Shown: positions 17,730 through 28,677 of the stretch, one piece after another
How positions within the stretch are numbered: position 1 is the first letter of the stretch
Layout: each line of letters starts with the position of its first letter
Assembly (NCBI RefSeq): GCF_900177345.1
Contig: NZ_FWZT01000032.1
Coordinates: 1-64,000 of the forward strand
Reading direction: 5' to 3'
Length of the DNA: 64,000 nt
Source of the DNA: Pseudobacteriovorax antillogorgiicola
GTDB taxonomy: Bacteria > Bdellovibrionota_B > Oligoflexia > Oligoflexales > Oligoflexaceae
Notes under the pieces: model-generated
Seen by the model: only the letters and a program-made list of their open reading frames with translations
What the model was told of the DNA's origin: nothing
Database searches by the model: none
Translations under genes and position numbers: made by a program

Positions 17730-18674
17730 TTAAGCGTCTTCGAACAACCAAGTTGAGAGATAGCGCTCACCGCTACTTGGTAATATGGCAACGATTTCTT
17801 TGCCTTGATTTTCCACCCTTGAAGCAATTGCCACTGCGGCAGCGATGGCTGCCCCAGACGAGATGCCTCCCAGAATCCCTTCTTCCTTAGCAAGGCGTCG
17901 TGCCCACTGACCAGCTTCCTCGTTGCTGACTTGGATCACCTCGTCAATCAGTTCCGTGGCAAGGATATCGGGGATGAATCCTGCACCAATACCTTGGATT
18001 TTGTGAGGGCCTGGGTCTCCTCCTGATAATACGGGAGAGTCCTTTGGCTCAACAGCAATGGCATTTATTCCAGGTTTTAATTCCTTCAGGACACTTGCGA
18101 CACCTGTAATAGTTCCTCCAGTACCAACTCCTGAGATAATATAGTCGACGTTACCATCGGTATCATCCCAAATCTCCAGAGCCGTCGTTCGCCGATGAAT
18201 ATCTGGGTTCGAGGGGTTCTTGAACTGCTGAGGCATATAGTAACTTGGGTTCTGTTCTTTTATCTCAGTCGCCTTGCTAATCGCACCGTTCATTCCTTTC
18301 TCCCCTGGGGTCAATACCAGCTCTGCACCAAGAGCTTTGAGCAGTTTTCGTCGCTCGATAGACATGGTGTCTGGCATAGTTAGAATGAGCTTATATCCTT
18401 TTGCTGCTGCAACAAATGCTAAACCGATCCCAGTGTTGCCACTGGTCGGTTCGACTATGGTAGCACCTGGTTTTAAAGTGCCATCAGATTCTGCTTGCTC
18501 CACCATATTCAAAGCAATACGATCTTTAACACTTGAGAGAGGGTTGAAAAACTCACACTTGACAATGATGTTTCCGGGCAGGTCCTTGTCTAATACATTG
18601 AGCCGAACGAGAGGTGTGTTGCCTACAGTTTCTAGGATACTCTTTGCAATTTTGGGTCGATGTAAACGGTTCAT
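17730..18674 (-). CDS. cysK: cysteine synthase A (O-acetylserine sulfhydrylase)
   Basis: PLP-dependent enzyme making cysteine from O-acetylserine and sulfide. Signatures: [10 protein letters not shown] at the N terminus; [14 protein letters not shown] with the PLP-binding Lys; [12 protein letters not shown] (substrate loop); [11 protein letters not shown] (phosphate-binding loop); and GISSGAA near the end. The 314-residue length fits CysK. Last gene of the sulfate operon, 17 bases after cysE, with AGGAG before its ATG and a terminator after its stop. Being next to cysE, its product may form the cysteine synthase complex. Confidence 0.92.
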
Positions 18675-18691: not shown

Positions 18692-19561
18692 TTAAATTCC
18701 ATCGCCATTAGTAAAGAAATTTTGCTGATAGCGTGACTGTTGAATGCGACTGTATGCAGGCAGACTCTGGGTGAGCCACACGTTACCACCAATAATAGAG
18801 TGGTGACCAATTGTGATTGCGCCTAAGATCGTAGCGCCAGCGTAAACGGTGATATGACTTTCCAATGTCGGATGCCTAACTTGGCCTTTGATAATTGTGC
18901 CATCGGGATTTTTAGGAAAGCTTTTTGCACCTAGGGTCACTCCTTGGTAAAGAGTGCAGTGATCACCGATTACGGCCGTTTCTCCAATGACAACCCCAGT
19001 TCCATGGTCAATAAAGCAGGAGGAACCAATTTCGGCTCCAGGGTGAATGTCGATCCCGGTTTTTTGATGAGACAACGTGTTAATGAAGCGTGGGACTAAA
19101 GGCAGCTTTTCCTTAAAGAGCATATGGGCGAGTCGATGATGGCTTAGAGCGCGAATACTGGGGTAAGACATAGCAATTTCCAAAGGATCAGTGCTTGCGG
19201 GGTCGCGGTCCATGGCGGCTTGTATATCAAGACTAAGCTCTTCTTGTAAGGACGGTAGATAGTCGAGAAACTTTGCCATGAGTTGATCAGTGGCGGCTTC
19301 CGTCCATTTCTTTGGATAGAGTTTTTCGATTTGATTGGCTGCTCCGTGGAGCTTTTCTAGTAGATCACTAAGCTCAGAAACAACATTCTCACTCTGATCG
19401 AGCGGCGACAACAACAAGGATTCAAAGTGCTCCAAAAGATCGATGCATGCTGACTTTATGTCTCTTAAATGAAAACCAGAGCGAAGCGAGGACTCTTTGA
19501 GCTGCTTGGCAATCAATTCGAGGGTCTGGCGATTTTTAATCAAATAGTCTTGTTTGGTCAT
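18692..19561 (-). CDS. cysE: serine O-acetyltransferase
   Basis: Left-handed beta-helix acetyltransferase making O-acetylserine from serine and acetyl-CoA. Hexapeptide repeats run from IDIHPGAEIGSSCFIDHGTG through VVIGETAVIGDHCTLYQGVTLG to ITIGHHSIIGGNVWLTQSLP. A helical N-terminal half of about 150 residues precedes them, as in the longer SAT type. The C terminus ends in QQNFFTNGDGI, and a terminal Ile is the usual anchor for CysK binding. Its start overlaps the stop of the DUF2061 gene by four bases (ATGA). Confidence 0.9.
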   Translation of the reverse strand: MTKQDYLIKNRQTLELIAKQLKESSLRSGFHLRDIKSACIDLLEHFESLLLSPLDQSENVVSELSDLLEKLHGAANQIEKLYPKKWTEAATDQLMAKFLDYLPSLQEELSLDIQAAMDRDPASTDPLEIAMSYPSIRALSHHRLAHMLFKEKLPLVPRFINTLSHQKTGIDIHPGAEIGSSCFIDHGTGVVIGETAVIGDHCTLYQGVTLGAKSFPKNPDGTIIKGQVRHPTLESHITVYAGATILGAITIGHHSIIGGNVWLTQSLPAYSRIQQSRYQQNFFTNGDGI

Positions 19562-19821
19562 GCTAGATTCCTTTTTTCAGGTGAGACGTATGACTCCTGA
19601 TCAGTTGGCATGGGATAAACCCGACCCCAGTGAACTGAGTTCCAAAGTCTTTCGTGCCCGTAATATAGAACCATTTTTGCGATAGCTTCAAGACCTCCCA
19701 CTGCAAGTGCGGCATGAAGGTCTTGGGTAAATATATAGACCAATAGGCCTGTAGCAAGGGTTGCAATGATGCGCCAGGAGCAAGTTTTGAGCAGCGACCT
19801 TTTGAGTGTTTCTTGACTCAT
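19558..19821 (-). CDS. DUF2061 small membrane protein
   Basis: 87 residues with two hydrophobic segments (IIATLATGLLVYIF and ALAVGGLEAIAKMVLYY). The DUF2061 pattern is visible: RSLLKTCSWRIIATLATG and YYGHERLWNSV. Function is unknown in the family. It is translationally coupled on both sides (ATGA overlaps with cysN and cysE), so it is an integral part of the sulfate operon and probably helps sulfur assimilation at the membrane (inference). Confidence 0.75.
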   Translation of the reverse strand: MSQETLKRSLLKTCSWRIIATLATGLLVYIFTQDLHAALAVGGLEAIAKMVLYYGHERLWNSVHWGRVYPMPTDQESYVSPEKRNLA

Positions 19822-21335
19822 GACAGTGAACCTCCTGATAGAAGCAGTCGTCTCAACCGTTGTAGGTCATTTTCAGACCATTCGCGCCAGAGAACACCTT
19901 CGGAATAATCTAATAGCTCACGGCGATTGGTGACTACAGGAATGTTGCTTTTAGAAATCTGTTTCAGCCACCACAAATCAATTTCTGGAGACCCTGGCAG
20001 AGGACTGTTATCTATTAACAGCGTATTGGATTCCTGAATGAGACTTTTGAACAACTCAGAGTTTTGGCTATCGATAAAGTGCCATACAAGCTCGCGCTGG
20101 GACTTTGGGAGTTCTATAGGAAATTCAAAGCGTCCAGCGGCAACCGTGGCATATGTTTGCTCATCTACCAGCAAGAAACTACCGAGGAGACGGGATGATT
20201 CGTAAGAACTAGCTCCAATTGTCGCTTGGCTTTCAATCACACATTGGCCAATATCATTTAGGCTTAGTCCTCTGGTTGCCTGAGTTTGGAGTGTGCTGAG
20301 ATTCAACTTACTAAGAAGTTTGCTCAACCTAACCTTGAAGTAGCGACTGCGGTGTTTGAGCAGGTAGGTGCGACCTTCCTGGGCTTCATGGGCTGCAAAC
20401 CAAACCAATGAGCTTTGCCAAGCGTAACTCTCTTGAATGGGGTTGTCTACATGGCTGATAATGGAGCCAGCTTGGATATCTAGGTTCTCTTCTAGCTCCA
20501 CTAGAATCGATTGTCCTTCGCGAGCTTCTCCCTGTCGCTGATTCCCGCGATAGATAGCCTTGATGCGGCTGCGGCCATCTTCGGGGAAGACTTCAATAAA
20601 ATCACCCTCCCGCAGAGTCCCATCAGTAACTTTGCCAGCGAAGCCACGAAAGTCCTGATGGGGGCGGATGACGTATTGAACGGCGAGATGTCCGTGGCTA
20701 TCACGACTTGGGCTGACATCGAGAGTTTCCAGATGTTCCAGCAGCGAAGGGCCACGATACCAGGGCATTGCTGTCGATTGCTTGGTAATGTTATCACCCT
20801 TTAAGGCACTCATGGGAAGCGCGAGACTTTCTGCAAATCCTAATTTTTGTGCCATGGCTAAAACTTGCTGCTCAATCTCAAGGTAGCGGTCTTCATCATA
20901 GGCGATACTATCCATCTTGTTGATGGCGAAGATCACGAGCGGAATTTTGAGAAGGTGGCTGATAGCAGTGTGGCGTTTGGTTTGCTCAGTAGGGCCCTGG
21001 CGGGCATCGACAAGTATGATCGCCAAATCAGCTGTGGACGCTCCTGTTGCCATGTTTCTTGTGTACTGCTCGTGACCGGGTGTATCGGCAAGGATAAATT
21101 TACGGCGAGGGCTAGCAAAATACTTGTAGGCCACATCGATGGTGATACCCTGTTCTCGCTCAGATTTGAGTCCGTCGGTAAGAGCAGCAAAGTTGAGGTC
21201 GCCTTGACCCTGAGTCGAGAGCTGATGCATTTGATCAGTCATGATTGATTGGCAATCGTGAAGGAGGCGTCCTATCAGTGTAGATTTGCCGTCATCAACA
21301 CTACCAGCTGTGGATATTCGTAGAAGATTCTTCAT
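19818..21335 (-). CDS. cysN: sulfate adenylyltransferase subunit 1 (GTPase)
   Basis: GTPase subunit that drives APS formation from sulfate and ATP together with CysD. Motifs: GSVDDGKSTLIGRLL (P-loop), GITIDVAY (switch I), DTPGHEQY (G3), NKMD (G4) and SALKG (G5), followed by two beta-barrel domains ending at about VAAGRFEF. Residues 425-505 form an extra tail (PKSQRELVWHFIDSQ to LLLSGGSLS). It sits where CysNC fusions carry an APS kinase, but it has no P-loop and so is not a functional CysC. Its start overlaps the cysD stop (TAATG). Confidence 0.9.
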   Translation of the reverse strand: MKNLLRISTAGSVDDGKSTLIGRLLHDCQSIMTDQMHQLSTQGQGDLNFAALTDGLKSEREQGITIDVAYKYFASPRRKFILADTPGHEQYTRNMATGASTADLAIILVDARQGPTEQTKRHTAISHLLKIPLVIFAINKMDSIAYDEDRYLEIEQQVLAMAQKLGFAESLALPMSALKGDNITKQSTAMPWYRGPSLLEHLETLDVSPSRDSHGHLAVQYVIRPHQDFRGFAGKVTDGTLREGDFIEVFPEDGRSRIKAIYRGNQRQGEAREGQSILVELEENLDIQAGSIISHVDNPIQESYAWQSSLVWFAAHEAQEGRTYLLKHRSRYFKVRLSKLLSKLNLSTLQTQATRGLSLNDIGQCVIESQATIGASSYESSRLLGSFLLVDEQTYATVAAGRFEFPIELPKSQRELVWHFIDSQNSELFKSLIQESNTLLIDNSPLPGSPEIDLWWLKQISKSNIPVVTNRRELLDYSEGVLWREWSENDLQRLRRLLLSGGSLS

Positions 21336-22231
21336 TAGAAATAACCCTCCCGTTTCTTTTTTTCCATGGATGCTTCACCATCATAGTCGATGATGCGGGT
21401 GACTCTCTCAGAAGTTTGCGCCTCCACAGTTTCACGGATGATATCATCAAGTGTTCGTGCTGTTGAGGGCACTGCTCCAGTACAAGGTGCGCAACCCAGG
21501 GTTCTATAGCGGCTTGGAACGGGCACTGCATCCGGGTGATTGCCTAAACGGCCTACTGCAGGGATCAATTGACCCTGTTTTGAAATCATTGGTCGTGAAG
21601 CAGAGAAATAAAGTGGCACTATAGGAATGTTTTCCCGTTTAATATACAGCCAGATATCAAGTTCGGTCCAGTTAGAAAGAGGAAAGACTCTTAGACTTTC
21701 TCCGGGGTGAATCAGAGTATTAAAGCTATCCCATAGTTCTGGACGCTGATTTTTGGGGTCCCACTGTCCATGTTGATCGCGAAACGAGAAGAATCGCTCT
21801 TTCGCTCTCGACTTCTCTTCATCACGGCGGGCTCCACCTAGAGCAGCGTCGACCTCGTAGAGTTTAAGGGCGTCAAGCAAAGCCTTAGTCTTGAGCAGGC
21901 CACAGCAACGAAGGGTTCCTAATTTGCTGGGATGGGCCTCGTCTTTTATAGCTTCTTCATTGCGATAGACTTTGAGGTCCACATCATAATGATCTTTTAT
22001 CCGATCACGAAATGCGATCATTTCTGGGAATTTGTAACCCGTATCAATATGAAGCAAGGAGAATGGAATGCGACCTGGTGCAAATGCTTTACTAGCAAGG
22101 TGAAGCAGTGCAGAAGAGTCTTTTCCCACTGAATACAGCATGATCGGTCTTTCGAACTGACTGGCGACTTCACGGATCACGTAGATCGCTTCGTCTTCCA
22201 GATCGTTAAGATGTTTTTCATTCAGGTGCAT
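21335..22231 (-). CDS. cysD: sulfate adenylyltransferase subunit 2
   Basis: PP-loop ATP-dependent catalytic subunit of ATP sulfurylase; 298 residues. The start at 22231 (MHLNEKHLNDLEDEAIYVIREV) matches the usual CysD N terminus and has AGGAGG upstream; the longer open frame upstream is in a shadow of cysH. Motifs: MLYSVGKDSSALLHLA (PP-loop), PFSLLHIDTGYKFPEM, LGGARRDEEKSRAKER, and the C-terminal RTLGCAPCTGAVPSTA. It overlaps cysH by 14 bases and cysN by one. Confidence 0.93.
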   Translation of the reverse strand: MHLNEKHLNDLEDEAIYVIREVASQFERPIMLYSVGKDSSALLHLASKAFAPGRIPFSLLHIDTGYKFPEMIAFRDRIKDHYDVDLKVYRNEEAIKDEAHPSKLGTLRCCGLLKTKALLDALKLYEVDAALGGARRDEEKSRAKERFFSFRDQHGQWDPKNQRPELWDSFNTLIHPGESLRVFPLSNWTELDIWLYIKRENIPIVPLYFSASRPMISKQGQLIPAVGRLGNHPDAVPVPSRYRTLGCAPCTGAVPSTARTLDDIIRETVEAQTSERVTRIIDYDGEASMEKKKREGYF

Positions 22232-22940
22232 CTTCCTGCCTCCTATGGTTATGCAGACCACATTCCTTTTTTCTGCTTTTCTCCCACCACCAACGTCCAG
22301 ATCGAAAGTCTTCTCCGGGACTAATGGCACGGGAGCACGGCTGGCAACCAATGCTGGGGTATCCTTGTTTATGAAGTCTGTTAAATGGTACTTGGTGGGA
22401 GTCGATGTAATCCCAAAGATCTTGCCAGCGCCAATTTTTGAGCGGATTGATTCGAACTCGGTTGTAACCATCGTCTTCGAAAAACGCAAGTGTTGAGCGA
22501 TATGAAGACTGCTCTGCCCTTAAACCGGCAAACCAAGCATGTTGCTGATCAAGAGCTCTAGCAAGAGGCCTCACCTTACGTACATGGCAGCAAGCTGTTC
22601 GAGCCTCAACAGACTGGTAGAAACCGTTGATTCCGTAACCCGCTACATAACGGCTAAGTTCGTCAGGCTCAGGATGAATGCTTCGAAAGCGGTTGCCATA
22701 GCGTTTTTCAGCGTCTTCTATAAGCTGATACGTTTCTATGGGGAGTCGCCCCGTATCGATATAAAAAATATCGATACTGTAGTCCTTCAGCATGTGAAGC
22801 AAAACCATATCCTCTAGCCCAAAACTTGATGCAAAAGACAAGCGATCCCCGAATCGTTTGATCCCATGATCAATGATGTCCTGGCTAGACCATCGGTGGG
22901 CTTCTTGGTTTAATTTATCGAGATTTAAGGATCGTATCAT
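22218..22940 (-). CDS. cysH: adenylyl-sulfate (APS) reductase, 4Fe-4S type
   Basis: PAPS/APS reductase family, 240 residues. The catalytic C-terminal KKECGLH is present. The pair ACC (in EARTACCHVRKV) and GCQPC supply the four cysteines of the 4Fe-4S cluster that marks APS-using enzymes and is absent from E. coli-type PAPS reductases. This agrees with the lack of an APS kinase here: the route is sulfate to APS to sulfite. Its start overlaps the cysI stop (ATGA). Confidence 0.92.
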   Translation of the reverse strand: MIRSLNLDKLNQEAHRWSSQDIIDHGIKRFGDRLSFASSFGLEDMVLLHMLKDYSIDIFYIDTGRLPIETYQLIEDAEKRYGNRFRSIHPEPDELSRYVAGYGINGFYQSVEARTACCHVRKVRPLARALDQQHAWFAGLRAEQSSYRSTLAFFEDDGYNRVRINPLKNWRWQDLWDYIDSHQVPFNRLHKQGYPSIGCQPCSRAISPGEDFRSGRWWWEKSRKKECGLHNHRRQEDAPE

Positions 22941-24613
22941 TCTAAGCCCTCCTCGATTGGTTTAAGGTTAGCCAAGCCGACACGATCCACAAAATCACCA
23001 AAATCTTCGGTGGGCTCTCCCTGCTTAGACCACTGGGAAAAGGCAAAATCAAGATACCTATATATATCGTCGAGCTTGAGTTTATCGCCTATTTTCTTGG
23101 CTAGCCGTGTTCCCTCTTGGCTGCCACCTAAAAATAAAGCGTATTTGCCAGGTAATTGACCCACGAGGCCGATCTCAGCAGCATAGGGACGAGCACAACC
23201 GTTTGGGCAACCTGTGATACGAACGGTTGGTGCTCGTCGCCCTTGCCGATGTTTGTCAAATAGCTCTTGGATGCTAGAGAAGGTTGCTTCGCCAACTCTC
23301 TCACTTTCGGCTAGTGCCTTCACGCAGGTTGGCAGAGCAACACATGTCACGGCTCGATCAAAGATTCGGTTTGGGGAAAAAGGGCTAATGCCATTCTGAT
23401 CCAAAATCGTTTCCACTTCGATTTGCTTTTCGGGATCGATTCCCTCCAGAATCAGATCTTGTTCAGCTGTGATTTGCACTTGTGTAACGTAGTGATCGAT
23501 TATCTGGCGAAGAGCCGATTTCAGCTTGCGGTTTGGCTGATCTATAATGCGACCAGAAAGTAGATGCAAGCCCAAAGCTTTTTTGCCATTGGCTTGATCA
23601 AACCAACCCAAAGGCGATCTAGTCTTCCAGGGAGCAAGGGGGCGATCTTCAAAGTCGACACCGGCGCGACTGCTTACCTCATGGCGAAACCAATCGACTC
23701 CTCGATGAGCAATGGTGTATTTGAGCCGAGCTTGGGAACGGTCCTCACGATTGCCGAAATCCCTTTGGGTCGTGACAATGGCTTCACTAATAGGGATAAG
23801 TTCTTTTTTAGGAATCCAGCCTAGATGATCAGCGAGCCTGGGAAAAGTCGCTTCGTTATTATGGGATGTGCCCATGCCGCCGCCAGCAAATATATGGTAG
23901 CCATCGATCACTCCACCATCGTTGAAAGTAGCGACGATGGCGAAGTCGTGAGTATAGATGTCGACACTGTTGTCACCTTCCGCACTTACAGCAATTTTAA
24001 ACTTTCGGGGCAAATATCGGTCGCCATAGATCGTTTCTTGTTCATCGACGCGCACCGACTCACCATCGAGAAAGATATCGAAGTACGCCTGACTTCTAAC
24101 TTCGAAGTGTTGCGAGATGAGTTCGGCCACATGATCAAGCTGCGCAAGCTTCGGGTCTCCCCAAGGGTTGACTGCCTGAGTTACATTGCGAACAACATCG
24201 CCACAGGCACCTGTGGTAGTTTGAAGTGATTGGTGAATCTTCTTGATGGAGTCTTCCACTTGAGATTTTAGAACACCATGTAATTGAATACTTTGTCTGG
24301 TGGTAAGCCTAATTCCGCCGCTGGAATATGCGCTTGCTAGATCGTCCCATACCCTCCAGCTTTCGGGGCTGAGACGCCCTCCCGGGATTCGGCCCCGAAT
24401 CATCAAAGTAAAGGGTTTAGGGCCAAGCTTGCGCTCTGCTGGTGCGCGGCGATCTCGGTCTTTCTGCTGATACATGCCATGAAATTTAAGCAATTGCTCA
24501 GAATCATTGGTAAAGCGCTTGGCTTCGGGATCCTTAAGTTCTTCTTTGATTTTGCCTCGCAAGCCATGTGAACTTTGCTTGAGGCGTTCAATTTTGGTTA
24601 ACTCTTGGCTCAT
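22937..24613 (-). CDS. cysI: assimilatory sulfite reductase, siroheme subunit
   Basis: Reduces sulfite to sulfide. The nitrite/sulfite reductase ferredoxin-like half (IPGGRLSPESWRVWDDLAS, IRLTTRQSIQLHGV) is followed by the siroheme/4Fe-4S cysteines in CVALPTC and GCPNGCARPYAAEIGLVG. Length 558 residues fits CysI. No cysJ flavoprotein is in the operon, so electrons may come from ferredoxin or a distant partner; I cannot tell from the sequence whether this is a ferredoxin-type Sir. It precedes cysH with ATGA overlap and follows the SUMT gene by 21 bases. Confidence 0.9.
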   Translation of the reverse strand: MSQELTKIERLKQSSHGLRGKIKEELKDPEAKRFTNDSEQLLKFHGMYQQKDRDRRAPAERKLGPKPFTLMIRGRIPGGRLSPESWRVWDDLASAYSSGGIRLTTRQSIQLHGVLKSQVEDSIKKIHQSLQTTTGACGDVVRNVTQAVNPWGDPKLAQLDHVAELISQHFEVRSQAYFDIFLDGESVRVDEQETIYGDRYLPRKFKIAVSAEGDNSVDIYTHDFAIVATFNDGGVIDGYHIFAGGGMGTSHNNEATFPRLADHLGWIPKKELIPISEAIVTTQRDFGNREDRSQARLKYTIAHRGVDWFRHEVSSRAGVDFEDRPLAPWKTRSPLGWFDQANGKKALGLHLLSGRIIDQPNRKLKSALRQIIDHYVTQVQITAEQDLILEGIDPEKQIEVETILDQNGISPFSPNRIFDRAVTCVALPTCVKALAESERVGEATFSSIQELFDKHRQGRRAPTVRITGCPNGCARPYAAEIGLVGQLPGKYALFLGGSQEGTRLAKKIGDKLKLDDIYRYLDFAFSQWSKQGEPTEDFGDFVDRVGLANLKPIEEGLE

Positions 24614-24634
24614 TGTAGTCTCCTATGGGTGTCG

Positions 24635-25432
24635 TTAAGCTTTCATGCGTTGATCGGGGCTAATGAATGGAGTTAGAGTGATCGCTCCCTCAACCTGCTG
24701 GCTGGCTTGCCATTGAAGGAATAGATCAACTGTTGGTCCGATATAAATAATTCCAGGGCCGTCGATTGCCTTGGGCATACCATACGATATGACATCCTCT
24801 AATGTTCTCACTTGCGCGTGGGGTTGCATCTTAGAATCTGACTCCACCATGGCCATAGGAGTCGTCCGAGATAGTCCGTGCTCAATCAGTTTTTCTGCAA
24901 TAAGAGAAGTTTTTCGAGAGCCCATAAAGATGACTAGGGTTCCTTCGAACTGTGCCAGCTGCTGCCAGTCTTTTGAGTCTTGGCCCAAGGTATGGCCCTC
25001 GATAACCATGACCTTTCGCACCATCTCCCGATGGGTGAGGGGCAGAGCTATGGAGCTGGCAACACCGTTTAAAGAGCTAAGACCAGGGACGATCTCACAT
25101 GGAATTTGAGCTTTGAGGCAGGCTGTGAGTTCTTCGCCCCCACGACCAAAAATGAATGGATCGCCACCTTTGAGTCGAACCACATGCTGGCCTTTTTTAG
25201 CCCAGCGAACTAAGAGGTCCTCGATCTCCCGTTGAGGAACTGTGTGGTGAGAGCAGCGCTTACCAACATGGAATCGAGGGATTCCAGTTGGGATGACGGA
25301 AAGAAAATCTTCGCTTAATAAAGCGTCGTAGAAAACAACATCAGCTTGTTGAAGAGTGCGATAAGCCCTCATCGTAAGTAAATCGGGATGACCTGGGCCT
25401 GCCCCAACGAGGCTCACCTTGCCATAAGTCAT
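24635..25432 (-). CDS. cobA: uroporphyrinogen-III C-methyltransferase (SUMT)
   Basis: Adds two methyl groups to uroporphyrinogen III to give precorrin-2, the precursor of siroheme needed by CysI. Motifs: VSLVGAGPGHPDLLTMRA, VFYDALLS, VVRLKGGDPFIFGRGGEE, and PGLSSLNGVASSIALPLTHR. Only the methyltransferase domain is present (265 residues), not the CysG dehydrogenase/chelatase half. The start at 25432 has AAGGAG six bases upstream, in preference to the longer frame from 25453. First structural gene of the sulfate operon, behind a long leader with a Cys-rich peptide. Confidence 0.9.
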   Translation of the reverse strand: MTYGKVSLVGAGPGHPDLLTMRAYRTLQQADVVFYDALLSEDFLSVIPTGIPRFHVGKRCSHHTVPQREIEDLLVRWAKKGQHVVRLKGGDPFIFGRGGEELTACLKAQIPCEIVPGLSSLNGVASSIALPLTHREMVRKVMVIEGHTLGQDSKDWQQLAQFEGTLVIFMGSRKTSLIAEKLIEHGLSRTTPMAMVESDSKMQPHAQVRTLEDVISYGMPKAIDGPGIIYIGPTVDLFLQWQASQQVEGAITLTPFISPDQRMKA

Positions 25433-25488: not shown

Positions 25489-25573
25489 CACGGCAGTTAA
25501 ACGCTAATAATATGGCGTAAAGAACTCTGGGTCTGAGTCGCGATCAATAATATTAAGTTGTTGAAATAAAGGG

Positions 25574-25595
25574 AAAAAAAGTTGCGGTTAGCAAC
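25574..25595 (-). terminator. attenuator hairpin with U7 tail
   Basis: On the minus strand GTTGC-TAACC-GCAAC is followed directly by TTTTTTT. The 5' arm is made of the last two Cys codons of the leader peptide and the loop contains its stop codon. A second upstream GTTGC (25606-25610), also in Cys codons, could pair with the same 3' arm. The stem is short (five pairs), so strength is uncertain. Confidence 0.6.
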
Positions 25596-25683
25596 AACAA
25601 GAAAGGCAACAGAGGCAGGGTAGCAAAGAAGCGAAGCTAAAAGGCTGTTCGGTCAAAGTCGATTTATAATGCTGTCTTCTCAT
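25588..25683 (-). CDS. cysteine-rich leader peptide of the sulfate operon
   Basis: 31-codon frame starting with ATG at 25683, with AGGTGA four bases before it. Its C-terminal end reads LLPCLCCLSCCC, then stop: six Cys codons among the last nine, in a genome where Cys is otherwise rare. It ends inside a hairpin followed by seven U, 155 bases upstream of cobA. As in the classical trp, his or leu leaders, a ribosome held at Cys codons when charged Cys-tRNA is scarce would cover the hairpin's 5' arm and allow read-through into the cysteine biosynthesis genes. The codons and the hairpin are seen directly; the mechanism is inferred. Too short for ordinary gene finding. Confidence 0.75.
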   Translation of the reverse strand: MRRQHYKSTLTEQPFSFASLLPCLCCLSCCC

Positions 25684-25728
25684 AAGGTCACCTATTGATA
25701 CAAGGATGAACTGACACTACACTTTTCC

Positions 25729-25756
25729 ACTATCCTGCCCTAGAAGTCAATGGCAA
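25729..25756 (-). promoter_or_regulatory. candidate promoter of the sulfate operon
   Basis: On the minus strand TTGCCA (25756-25751), 16 bases, then GATAGT (25734-25729). Transcription would begin about 40 bases before the leader-peptide ATG. Only four of six bases match at the -10, so this is tentative. Confidence 0.35.
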
Positions 25757-25857: not shown

Positions 25858-25952
25858 GGGTAATGACGAGTCATTTCCCGTGCCAATTAAGGCTTTTCTG
25901 GGGGCCACCGATATTCAGGCTGAGGACAAATGACCACATTTTAGAGGGCACC

Positions 25953-26678
25953 ATGGGTATCCGGTCTGGGTTTTCCATCGTCGAGCTGTTGGTCGCTATC
26001 GCCTTCGCAATCGCGACCACCTATTTTGCTATTGATAACATTCTCGTCGTTCGGGACTTGGCCCGCTTAACAGAAAATAAAGTTGTGGTGTCCGAGATCG
26101 AGGAAAGCCTGCGATCCACCTTGTCTTCTCGGAAGAAATTTACGGCAACGATCAATCGTAACCCAAGACTAAAAACCTGCATGATTGAAGATGCTAAACT
26201 TTGCTCAGCCACTCCCATGAGTCTTGAACTTTGGGCTTCGAACCAGCATCAGATTCCATTGCGATATTTTATCGATGGTAAAACCTGTGACAATGATCGC
26301 TGTCCGTTAGAAGTGGAGCTGCTGGCGAGAGGGCTCTGTGCAGATGCAGGCCGCTGTGATAAGGCAGCGACAATATTGGTTGATTACGCCATTTTTGCAG
26401 ATGGCGCCGTTCTACGCCGAGGTAGTATAAAGCGAAATATTTCGACGCCTCCAAGCTCTGATACAAATCAAGTTTGTCCCACCGGGGCAGATGATCAAAA
26501 AAACCTAGCTAGTGACGTGCGGGGTGGACGATTGCGCTGCGTTCCAGCGCCGCAATTACAGAGATCAATTACAGGTGTGATGCCAGGCGACTGCCTATTG
26601 GGAAAACAGCTCTTAGTAGGCTTTTCTAGCGAAGGCGACCCACTTTGTCAGGATATAAAGTTCCGGGGGAACCCATGA
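25953..26678 (+). CDS. type IV pilin-like (pseudopilin) protein 1
   Basis: The prepilin N terminus MGIRSG^FSIVELLVAIAFAIATTYFAI has a cleavable leader, the Glu at position +5 and the hydrophobic helix of class III-signal pilins. The remainder is Cys-rich (CDNDRCPLE, GLCADAGRCD, QVCPTGADD), which suggests a disulfide-stabilised, exported head. It ends with LLVGFSSEGDPLCQDIKF, a motif repeated in the next two proteins. The ATG at 25953 has GAGGG upstream and gives a standard leader; the frame is open further upstream. Its stop overlaps the next start (ATGA). Confidence 0.75.
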   Translation: MGIRSGFSIVELLVAIAFAIATTYFAIDNILVVRDLARLTENKVVVSEIEESLRSTLSSRKKFTATINRNPRLKTCMIEDAKLCSATPMSLELWASNQHQIPLRYFIDGKTCDNDRCPLEVELLARGLCADAGRCDKAATILVDYAIFADGAVLRRGSIKRNISTPPSSDTNQVCPTGADDQKNLASDVRGGRLRCVPAPQLQRSITGVMPGDCLLGKQLLVGFSSEGDPLCQDIKFRGNP

Positions 26679-27457
26679 AGCTGCCCAGAAGTGATGGGTT
26701 TACACTCGTAGAATCAGTGATCGCTGGTGCGGTACTCCTGGTGATCCTCGGTGGTGTGATGATGAAAGTCACATCAATCACAGATCATATTCGGAAGACC
26801 GAGCAAATACTAGCACTGGATAGCCTCGAATCATGGCTTGCGCCTCTTCTCACAGATCTGGAAAGCCTACGCTATTCAGCCAGTCTTCTTAAAGATAAGC
26901 AACTTCAGGCTTGCCTAGAAGGAAAACTTCCCTGCCGCAGCGACCGAGACTTCCCCCTGCCTGTGTTTCTGAAAGGGCAGAAGAACCCAATCAGTGGCGC
27001 CGGGAGTCGCTATGATGCCAATGGCAATTTATGTTTCGATGATAAATGTGAGGCCTATCAAGTAAACACTGTGGTGCAAACCAATTGTTCGGTGGGGGCT
27101 GTGTGTGAAAGCCCTTCGTTCTTAACGATTCGTTACGATATAGTTGACTCAAAGTCGAACAAGACGATTCGCAAGTTTTTCCTTGAAGCCAATCGTTTTA
27201 GAAACAAGCGCTTTCCCAACTTGTACACCACTTGTGTGGAAAATCAGGTCTTAAGGGGCTTGGGCATCAATGGGGAGCCTCTTTGTGTAGCTCTATCTGA
27301 TATAAAATTGAAGAACTCTGCTGGTGACATCGATACCGGACAAATTCAAGTCAAGGCAAAGGACTGTGCTGAAGCTAATAGTGATGACAGAGATCAGTTT
27401 TACGTGCGCGGGATGAATCGTCAGGGTGATCTTCTTTGTGCGAAGAGGTTTTGGTAA
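26675..27457 (+). CDS. type IV pilin-like (pseudopilin) protein 2
   Basis: Prepilin signal MKLPRSDG^FTLVESVIAGAVLLVILGGVMM with Glu +5. The head is Cys-rich (QACLEGKLPCRSD, NLCFDDKCEAY, TNCSVGAVCE). Two C-terminal copies of a short motif occur: LRGLGINGEPLCVALSDIK and VRGMNRQGDLLCAKRFW. The start at 26675 overlaps the previous stop, and its own stop overlaps the next start (TAATG), so the three genes are one translational unit. No pilus motor or prepilin peptidase gene is nearby. Confidence 0.75.
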   Translation: MKLPRSDGFTLVESVIAGAVLLVILGGVMMKVTSITDHIRKTEQILALDSLESWLAPLLTDLESLRYSASLLKDKQLQACLEGKLPCRSDRDFPLPVFLKGQKNPISGAGSRYDANGNLCFDDKCEAYQVNTVVQTNCSVGAVCESPSFLTIRYDIVDSKSNKTIRKFFLEANRFRNKRFPNLYTTCVENQVLRGLGINGEPLCVALSDIKLKNSAGDIDTGQIQVKAKDCAEANSDDRDQFYVRGMNRQGDLLCAKRFW

Positions 27458-28677
27458 TGTTAAAAGATGAGTCTGGTATCAGCACAGTAATGATGGTAAT
27501 GATTGGTGCTCTTGTGATGAGTACTGTGGGGTCTACAATCATTCTTTTAGATAAGAGGAAAACCTATCTTGAGATTGTTCGAATGCAAACCCGCCTTGAG
27601 CTGACAGAAAGACAAGTGAAAGAAACAGCCACAAGCCTTGGGGCACTGCGCGTCAGTGGCAATAAAATGGGTGCGGGACACCCTCTCTATCAGTGCATTG
27701 AAGCACAGAGCTGTATTCATATGAATTTCTTTCAGCCCTACACGCTATATGATGCAGGTGGGCGGAGAGTTAGTGGTAGGCGGACGCTAGCAGGAGAACC
27801 CTGTGACGGCGAATGCCCTCTGGATATTGAAACGAGGTTTCGCATTTCCTGTGGTGGTGGGCAAAGCCGTTGCAACCAACCAGCGGAAGTAGAGACTCAA
27901 TATTCCCTAAGAAAAGATAGCAAAGTCTATTTTGGGAACCGGAAGTTCCAAGAGATCGAAGGCACAGTCAGTGCAGCGACCTTCGTCTGCCCTGAAGATG
28001 AATATGTCACGAGTATCAGCGAGGATGGCCAGATTTCTTGCTCAGGTGCTCTTGACGAAAGGTTTGTGAGTATATGTCCTCCAGGTTCCGCTGCTTACGG
28101 GATGGACGCGCGAGGCTTATTTAAATGCGCTCCCGTGGTTGATTATTGCCAAGAGCCGATTGCCTTTGCTTATGTCATAGATACATCTGGCTCTATGCGT
28201 CGCGGAAAACTGGATGCGGCCAAAACCTCGTCAAAATCCCTACTTGGGAATTTGGAAACCGGTGACCGGGCTTCTCTCACTCGCTATAGTAGTTCAGCGG
28301 AGAGTGTTCAAAGCCTCACAAAAAATACCAACGATGTAATTTCCAGCTTGAATCAACTCAAGGCGAGAGGCTTCACTAATATGACAGAAGGTCTTCGGCT
28401 TGGTGCGCAAAGCTTGCAAGGAATCGCCAAAGATCATCCTGTCATGGTGTTTCTGAGCGATGGTTATCATAATCGTGGTGATGTTGACCCGATCGTCGAG
28501 GCACAGAAAGTGAAGGATTCCGGTGTTCGGATCTTTACGGTAGGTTATGGCAAGAAACCAGATGAGGATCGGCTCCAGAAGATCGCAACTGCCCCAGCAG
28601 ATTACTTTCGCGCAGAAAATGCGTCACAGCTGCAAAAGGTGCTAGCCAATATCTCAACGATCATGTGCCGAGAATGA
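27457..28677 (+). CDS. pseudopilin-associated protein with von Willebrand A domain
   Basis: An N-terminal hydrophobic helix (GISTVMMVMIGALVMSTVGSTIILL) is reminiscent of TadE/PilX-like anchors but lacks the classic prepilin Glu. A Cys-rich middle region (CIEAQSCIH, GEPCDGECPLD) resembles the two preceding proteins. Short VTSISEDGQISCSG and YGMDARGLFKCAP motifs follow, then a complete vWA domain (about residues 235-405) with the metal-ion site DTSGSM, the Thr in GFTNMTEGL and the Asp in FLSDGYH. The cluster could form a pilus tip carrying a ligand-binding vWA module, comparable in concept to PilY1 (inference). Confidence 0.75.
   Translation: MLKDESGISTVMMVMIGALVMSTVGSTIILLDKRKTYLEIVRMQTRLELTERQVKETATSLGALRVSGNKMGAGHPLYQCIEAQSCIHMNFFQPYTLYDAGGRRVSGRRTLAGEPCDGECPLDIETRFRISCGGGQSRCNQPAEVETQYSLRKDSKVYFGNRKFQEIEGTVSAATFVCPEDEYVTSISEDGQISCSGALDERFVSICPPGSAAYGMDARGLFKCAPVVDYCQEPIAFAYVIDTSGSMRRGKLDAAKTSSKSLLGNLETGDRASLTRYSSSAESVQSLTKNTNDVISSLNQLKARGFTNMTEGLRLGAQSLQGIAKDHPVMVFLSDGYHNRGDVDPIVEAQKVKDSGVRIFTVGYGKKPDEDRLQKIATAPADYFRAENASQLQKVLANISTIMCRE

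Follow-up and report, generated by a model that had tools for sequence, protein, structure and literature searches.

What governs the genes that carry Pseudobacteriovorax antillogorgiicola from sulfate to cysteine, and what role is played by a short reading frame in front of them that ends in a run of Cys codons? We addressed this question in a stretch of 64,000 nucleotides from contig NZ_FWZT01000032.1 (hereafter the window) and in a sample of 58 genomes of the phylum, only seven of which encode CysI together with this CobA. These pathway-bearing genomes, some of them closely related, are that of the window (G000) and G001, G002, G003, G012, G030, and G036.

The operon and its leader ORF

In the window, the genes cobA-cysI-cysH-cysD-cysN-cysE-cysK all lie on the minus strand and apparently constitute one operon leading from sulfate activation to cysteine:

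24635..25432, minus strand: cobA, uroporphyrinogen-III C-methyltransferase (siroheme; TIGR01469)
22937..24613, minus strand: cysI/sir, assimilatory sulfite reductase hemoprotein (NF010029, above cut-off)
22218..22940, minus strand: cysH, APS/PAPS reductase (NF002537, above cut-off)
21335..22489, minus strand: cysD, sulfate adenylyltransferase small subunit (TIGR02039, above cut-off, residues 94-384; the true start probably lies downstream of the listed TTG)
19818..21335, minus strand: cysN, sulfate adenylyltransferase large subunit (TIGR02034, above cut-off)
18692..19561, minus strand: cysE-like serine acetyltransferase (hexapeptide repeats and a weak SATase_N match)
17730..18674, minus strand: cysK, O-acetylserine sulfhydrylase (TIGR01136, above cut-off)

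A gene similar to the cysE-like one occupies the equivalent place in G001 and G003. The gap between cobA and cysI in the window (24613-24635) is only about 20 bases; G001, G002, G003, G012, and G030 carry a precorrin-2 dehydrogenase-like gene between the two, which is missing from the window operon. Elsewhere in the window, a divergent cluster on the plus strand (25863-28677) encodes proteins with prepilin-like N-termini (GFSIVELLVAIAF, GFTLVESVIAGAV) and a VWA-domain protein.

At the head of the operon, the following elements were recognized:

25588..25683, minus strand: leader ORF of 31 codons, translated as MRRQHYKSTLTEQPFSFASLLPCLCCLSCCC*, with PCLCCLSCCC at the C-terminus directly before the stop
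25588..25617, minus strand: Cys-codon tract TGC CTC TGT TGC CTT TCT TGT TGT TGC TAA, the candidate sensor
25688..25693, minus strand: Shine-Dalgarno (SD) sequence AGGTGA of the leader ORF, read from the sequence
25745..25750, minus strand: TTGACT, a -35-like box 67 nt 5' of the leader ATG and presumably part of the operon promoter, at a position conserved in relatives

A preliminary description of this DNA had proposed a 31-codon frame, provided with its own ribosome site and ending in a Cys run, in front of genes that make cysteine. Both parts of that proposal hold for the elements listed above, the biosynthetic route being complete as far as CysE and CysK.

The signals around the leader recur among the relatives. 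A TTGAC[AT] box 62-75 nt 5' of the leader ATG, together with a ribosome site, is present in all six genomes in which the region is visible; the contig of the seventh, G002, starts inside the leader, so that its upstream signals are out of view. The leaders of G001, G003, G030, G012, and G036 likewise have ribosome sites, of the GGAG type. This placement of promoter box and ribosome site argues for a transcript start just upstream of the leader. The leaders would then have a 5' UTR of about 25-40 nt in addition to their SD sites and would not begin with an ATG at the 5' end of the transcript as a leaderless ORF does. No -10 box is evident downstream of the TTGAC[AT] boxes of the leader promoters. 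In G012 (L202), G030 (L208), and G036 (L203), CAGCCT follows TTGAC[AT] after 17 nt, with no TATAAT-like box, and CAGCCTT recurs at the -10 region within one family; its position suggests an unusual -10 element or an activator site.

Conservation of the leader across the phylum

Each of the seven pathway-bearing genomes has a short ORF with a terminal Cys run at its operon head. It directly precedes cobA in five (G000, G001, G002, G003, and G030) and a periplasmic binding protein gene in the other two. In G012, the leader, the binding protein gene, ABC transporter genes, and then cobA and cysI follow one another on one contig, and in G036 the leader precedes the same binding protein plus a permease. 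Since the leader is kept even though the first gene changes, it appears to be tied to the operon head and not to any particular gene. The peptides of the six relatives are as follows:

G001: MKFQNAKPFIPSQVEATLESSAFSCLCCLSCCC (same family as the window; CobA 49% identical)
G003: MQNTPQRYAQRLQNPDSSRVLVSARAALCCPCLCCC
G002: ...LATLPLCPCCC (N-terminal part missing at the contig start)
G030: ...ASLQCPLCFCCC (another family)
G012: ...SSLCLSACLCCCC
G036: ...SSVLCACPCCCC

Between genera, the Cys tail is the only part of the peptide that is conserved, a restriction that fits a sensor and not a working protein. A functional Cys-rich small protein, for example a metal-binding one, would account for the high Cys content and for the conserved presence of the ORF; yet the conservation stops at the C-terminal run, the spacing of the cysteines within it varies (CLCCLSCCC, CPLCFCCC, CPCCC, and CLSACLCCCC), and the ORF is found at the head of one pathway. 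We therefore regard a working protein as very improbable. Codon choice within the run is also skewed: TGT is used for 18 of the 21 final-three leader Cys codons across the seven genomes, against 29% in the downstream genes (p 8e-7), and for 7 of the 18 remaining leader Cys codons.

Short ORFs are common, and a chance origin was assessed by pattern searches of the window's genome (7.28 Mb). The pattern TGYTGYTGYTRR matches 83 times, and the stricter TGY-N3..6-TGYTGYTGYTRR, which demands an extra Cys codon 3-6 nt upstream of the triple, 14 times. Nine other in-frame, stop-terminated matches to the stricter pattern were inspected; in none of them is the Cys run preceded by a start codon, and nearly every one crosses a long frame. 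The window ORF is thus the only real one found among the matches inspected, and it heads a cysteine operon. Together with the presence of the leader at the operon head in every pathway-bearing genome, which already contradicts coincidence, this leaves a chance ORF with almost no probability.

Searches beyond the operon head delimit the signal further. Within the seven genomes, other cysK-like genes and sulfate permease genes showed no convincing Cys-run leader in front of them. The cobA upstream regions of 80 named loci, mostly from gammaproteobacteria, likewise yielded no convincing Cys-run ORF, with one unrelated match among 840 ORFs, so that the signal is no general property of such regions. 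A record (L130) titled Streptomyces cinereus JCM 3040 has a 2.8 Mb genome whose CobA ranks among those of Psychrobacter and other gammaproteobacteria, and its title looks wrong. A riboswitch, a T-box, or another catalogued leader was also considered and rejected: an Rfam search of the window gave nothing beyond a weak snoRNA match, below threshold and on the opposite strand, and the six related loci gave no match.

Taken by itself, the proposition that the ORF encodes a cysteine-sensing leader peptide is strongly supported by the occurrence of Cys-run leaders in all seven genomes, by conservation of the Cys residues only, and by the position of promoter and ribosome site; we consider it highly probable on this comparative evidence.

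A probable hairpin formed by the last Cys codons

How such a sensor would act on the operon is a separate matter, for which the region around the leader stop codon is informative:

25581..25595, minus strand: hairpin GTTGC-TAACC-GCAAC (GTTGC 25595-25591, TAACC loop, GCAAC 25585-25581); the 5' arm consists of the last Cys codons, and the stop codon lies in the loop
25574..25580, minus strand: U7 tract after the hairpin, a weak intrinsic terminator candidate
25557..25563, minus strand: CAACAAC, an alternative 3' arm by sequence, complementary to GTTGTTG (25598-25592) of the Cys tract

Pairing of the last Cys codons, in several cases together with the stop codon, with sequence just past the stop was found in six of the seven genomes. 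The arms are TTGTTGCT/AGCAGCGA in G001, GCTGTTGA/TCAACAGC in G030, GTTGTTGT/ACAACAAC in G012, and GTTGTTGA/TCAACAAC in G036, whereas G003 has a 10-bp stem around an inner hairpin and G002 has no equivalent Cys-codon hairpin; CAACAAC also serves as the 3' arm in G012 and G036. The combined p for this recurrence is 4.5e-6 against shuffled post-stop DNA and 1.4e-4 against real downstream segments of the same loci, the latter becoming 0.003 without the two sequences most related to others. With statistics of this moderate order, the recurrent Cys-codon hairpin is likely to be a genuine feature. Since the sensor doubles as its 5' arm, the hairpin cannot form while a ribosome occupies the last Cys codons or the stop.

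The preliminary description had read the locus as amino-acid attenuation for cysteine, with the GTTGC/GCAAC hairpin, its stop codon in the loop, and a U7 tail as terminator, and a second GTTGC made of earlier Cys codons competing for the same 3' arm. The hairpin and its tail are present as described (25595-25574), as is the second GTTGC (TGT TGC, codons 25-26), and a classical intrinsic attenuator can thus be drawn for the window. The stem, however, has only 5 bp; with its flanking U's it folds at -5.5 kcal/mol, a value reached by 2 of 200 shuffled sequences. The 1.5-kb region holds 3 terminator-like sites, barely above the shuffle mean of 1.3 +/- 1.3. A stem directly followed by a U-tract is absent in the six other genomes, the U7 of G001 lying about 9 nt past its stem. 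The second GTTGC is common to G000 and G001 only, whose Cys-coding stretches are identical, and no conserved, mutually exclusive antiterminator pairing was seen in the seven genomes. Moreover, the early GTTGC-GCAAC pairing would also end at U7, so that such pairing alone would not prevent termination. An intrinsic attenuator would therefore be at most a local elaboration, and as the explanation of the locus we judge it distinctly unlikely. What stands of the original proposal is a Cys-codon leader for a cysteine pathway, which every pathway-bearing genome proved to have; what falls away is the intrinsic terminator, and the antiterminator, as conserved features.

Base composition past the leader stop: a candidate Rho loading region

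A second property of the post-stop DNA is its composition:

25528..25587, minus strand: candidate Rho loading region, a 60-nt stretch following the leader stop that is poor in G (8%) and rich in C (28%)

The corresponding 60-nt segment comprises 8-13% G and 22-35% C in each of the seven genomes, with G again at 23-32% further downstream. These post-stop windows fall within the top 0.1-2.5% of the windows of each locus for G-poor, C-rich composition. All seven genomes also encode Rho. The composition is that expected of Rho loading sites and is, as a sequence property, only suggestive of them.

Translational control as an alternative output

Control might instead be exerted on translation, with transcription unaffected: a pyrimidine-rich segment of the leader would pair with the SD of the first gene, and a stall at the Cys codons would free it. 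This is the model reportedly proposed by Canestrari in 2020 for the polycysteine ORFs of M. smegmatis, in which a stall at the Cys codons is said to free an SD otherwise paired with the leader ORF. Our folding predictions for the stop state show the SD paired with the leader ORF in three genomes: G000 (nt -39 to -44, about 0.5), G002 (-23 to -28, 0.9), and G030 (-19 to -25, 0.46). A stall modelled at the first Cys codon raises the openness of the G000 SD from 0.29 to 0.54. Masking of the SD is not predicted in G001, G012, and G036, however, and the modelled stall leaves these three unchanged, has the opposite effect in G003, and brings little net gain in G002, so that clear opening is limited to G000. 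The distance from leader stop to gene start also ranges from 78 to 268 nt. Since pyrimidine-rich leaders pair with any SD, an SD match is in itself weak evidence. SD sequestration as a common output was set aside, the predictions being inconsistent across the seven genomes, and translational attenuation of the mycobacterial type seems to us rather unlikely here.

Other structures were noted near the cobA ribosome site. Just 5' of it in the window (25488-25448, minus strand), two mutually exclusive perfect 9-bp stems share the TGTCAAGAC bases, GTCTTGACA pairing with TGTCAAGAC and TCGCATGTC with GACATGCGA. This segment has a folding energy of -18.6 kcal/mol (z -4.9), and the paired stems were not seen in G001; they could provide a second control of cobA translation. 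In G003 (L211), a 21-bp perfect inverted repeat, GTTTTTTGGCCATTGCTTTCG...CGAAAGCAATGGCCAAAAAAC, lies about 130-200 nt past the leader stop and abuts the cobA ribosome site; the other genomes differ.

Proposed working of the leader

The best overall explanation, to which we assign a probability of roughly 0.68, is a cysteine-sensing leader at which transcription terminates before cobA, probably through Rho, and at which a ribosomal stall gives read-through. Rho-assisted transcription termination is probably the output, and we rank it ahead of translational control. We infer the stall, the direction of control, termination as the output, and the response to Cys-tRNA, and events would run as follows. 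The operon would be transcribed from the promoter just upstream of the leader. With charged tRNA-Cys plentiful, the ribosome would pass the Cys codons, stop, and leave; the last Cys codons could then fold with the sequence just past the stop, G-poor, C-rich RNA would be exposed, and most transcripts would end before cobA, probably through Rho, perhaps aided in the window's species by the weak U-tailed hairpin. With charged tRNA-Cys short, the ribosome would stall on the Cys tract, cover the hairpin arm, and shield the region, and RNA polymerase would continue into cobA-cysI-cysH-cysD-cysN-cysE-cysK. Several points weigh against this explanation: G002 lacks the hairpin, the hairpin statistics are of moderate strength, the post-stop composition only suggests Rho, and the comparison covers seven genomes, some of them close relatives. 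In addition, a ribosome halted at the first Cys codon would itself leave the last Cys codons and the post-stop region uncovered.

A more far-reaching version of the Rho-assisted reading is a two-state attenuator that needs no separate antiterminator. The sensor codons would themselves be the 5' arm of the attenuating hairpin, a stalled ribosome would directly prevent the off-state, Rho and not a U-tract would end transcription, and the arrangement would provide general cysteine control of sulfate assimilation in the phylum. We put this version forward as tentative only, and as appreciably less probable than not.

Relation to known leader peptides

In the trp, his, leu, and thr leaders of enterobacteria, regulatory codons for the pathway's own amino acid lie in the 5' arm of the first hairpin, with the stop codon in its loop. 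The present leaders resemble these attenuators in having the pathway's own codons in the 5' arm and the stop codon in the loop but differ in that no pair of 2:3 antiterminator and 3:4 terminator is conserved. With the Rho-dependent tnaC of E. coli, they share a candidate Rho loading region after the leader stop, but in tnaC the stall takes place at the stop codon in response to free tryptophan, and the operon is catabolic; in the present case, it would occur on uncharged tRNA-Cys, ahead of a biosynthetic operon.

The closest parallel is with mycobacteria, whose polycysteine ORFs, judging by the title of the 2020 Canestrari study, are reportedly leaderless and act as cysteine-responsive attenuators. 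In contrast, the leaders of the present set have a Shine-Dalgarno sequence and a presumed 5' UTR. The mycobacterial mechanism is termed translation attenuation in PMC13236596, citing Canestrari 2020. Cys-run ORFs, with the run near the stop, precede cys operons in Mycobacterium and Propionibacterium acnes and cbs in Bifidobacterium longum; no terminators were seen at these ORFs, and Rho was proposed (Seliverstov 2005, PMC1262725). The two sets therefore agree in that Cys codons end a short ORF before cys genes, that a conserved intrinsic terminator is lacking, and that Rho has already been proposed; they differ in that here the hairpin made from the last Cys codons recurs, one leader heads a whole sulfate-to-cysteine operon, and the phylum is another. 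A further relative is the uORFC-8-2 motif of Rhodobacterales cysS, which has tandem Cys codons in the first of two stems and a U-run in all cases, and for which attenuation was inferred (PMC8632094). Tandem Cys codons in a stem and, in the window, a U-tail are common to both, whereas in the present set the ORF closes with a long Cys run, one of the seven genomes shows the U-tail, and the leader precedes genes of sulfate assimilation.

In the open-access literature, no published report of a Cys leader in this bacterial group was found. From its sequence features, the switch would be of a type already known, and its occurrence in this group appears to be new within the literature searched. The seven-genome leader set offers a clean case for separating intrinsic, Rho, and translational outputs. 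Cysteine-sensing leaders have so far been reported from Actinobacteria and, for cysS, from Rhodobacterales; their presence here suggests that runs of Cys codons were either adopted as sensors independently or have been widely kept but overlooked, in ORFs too short for annotation.
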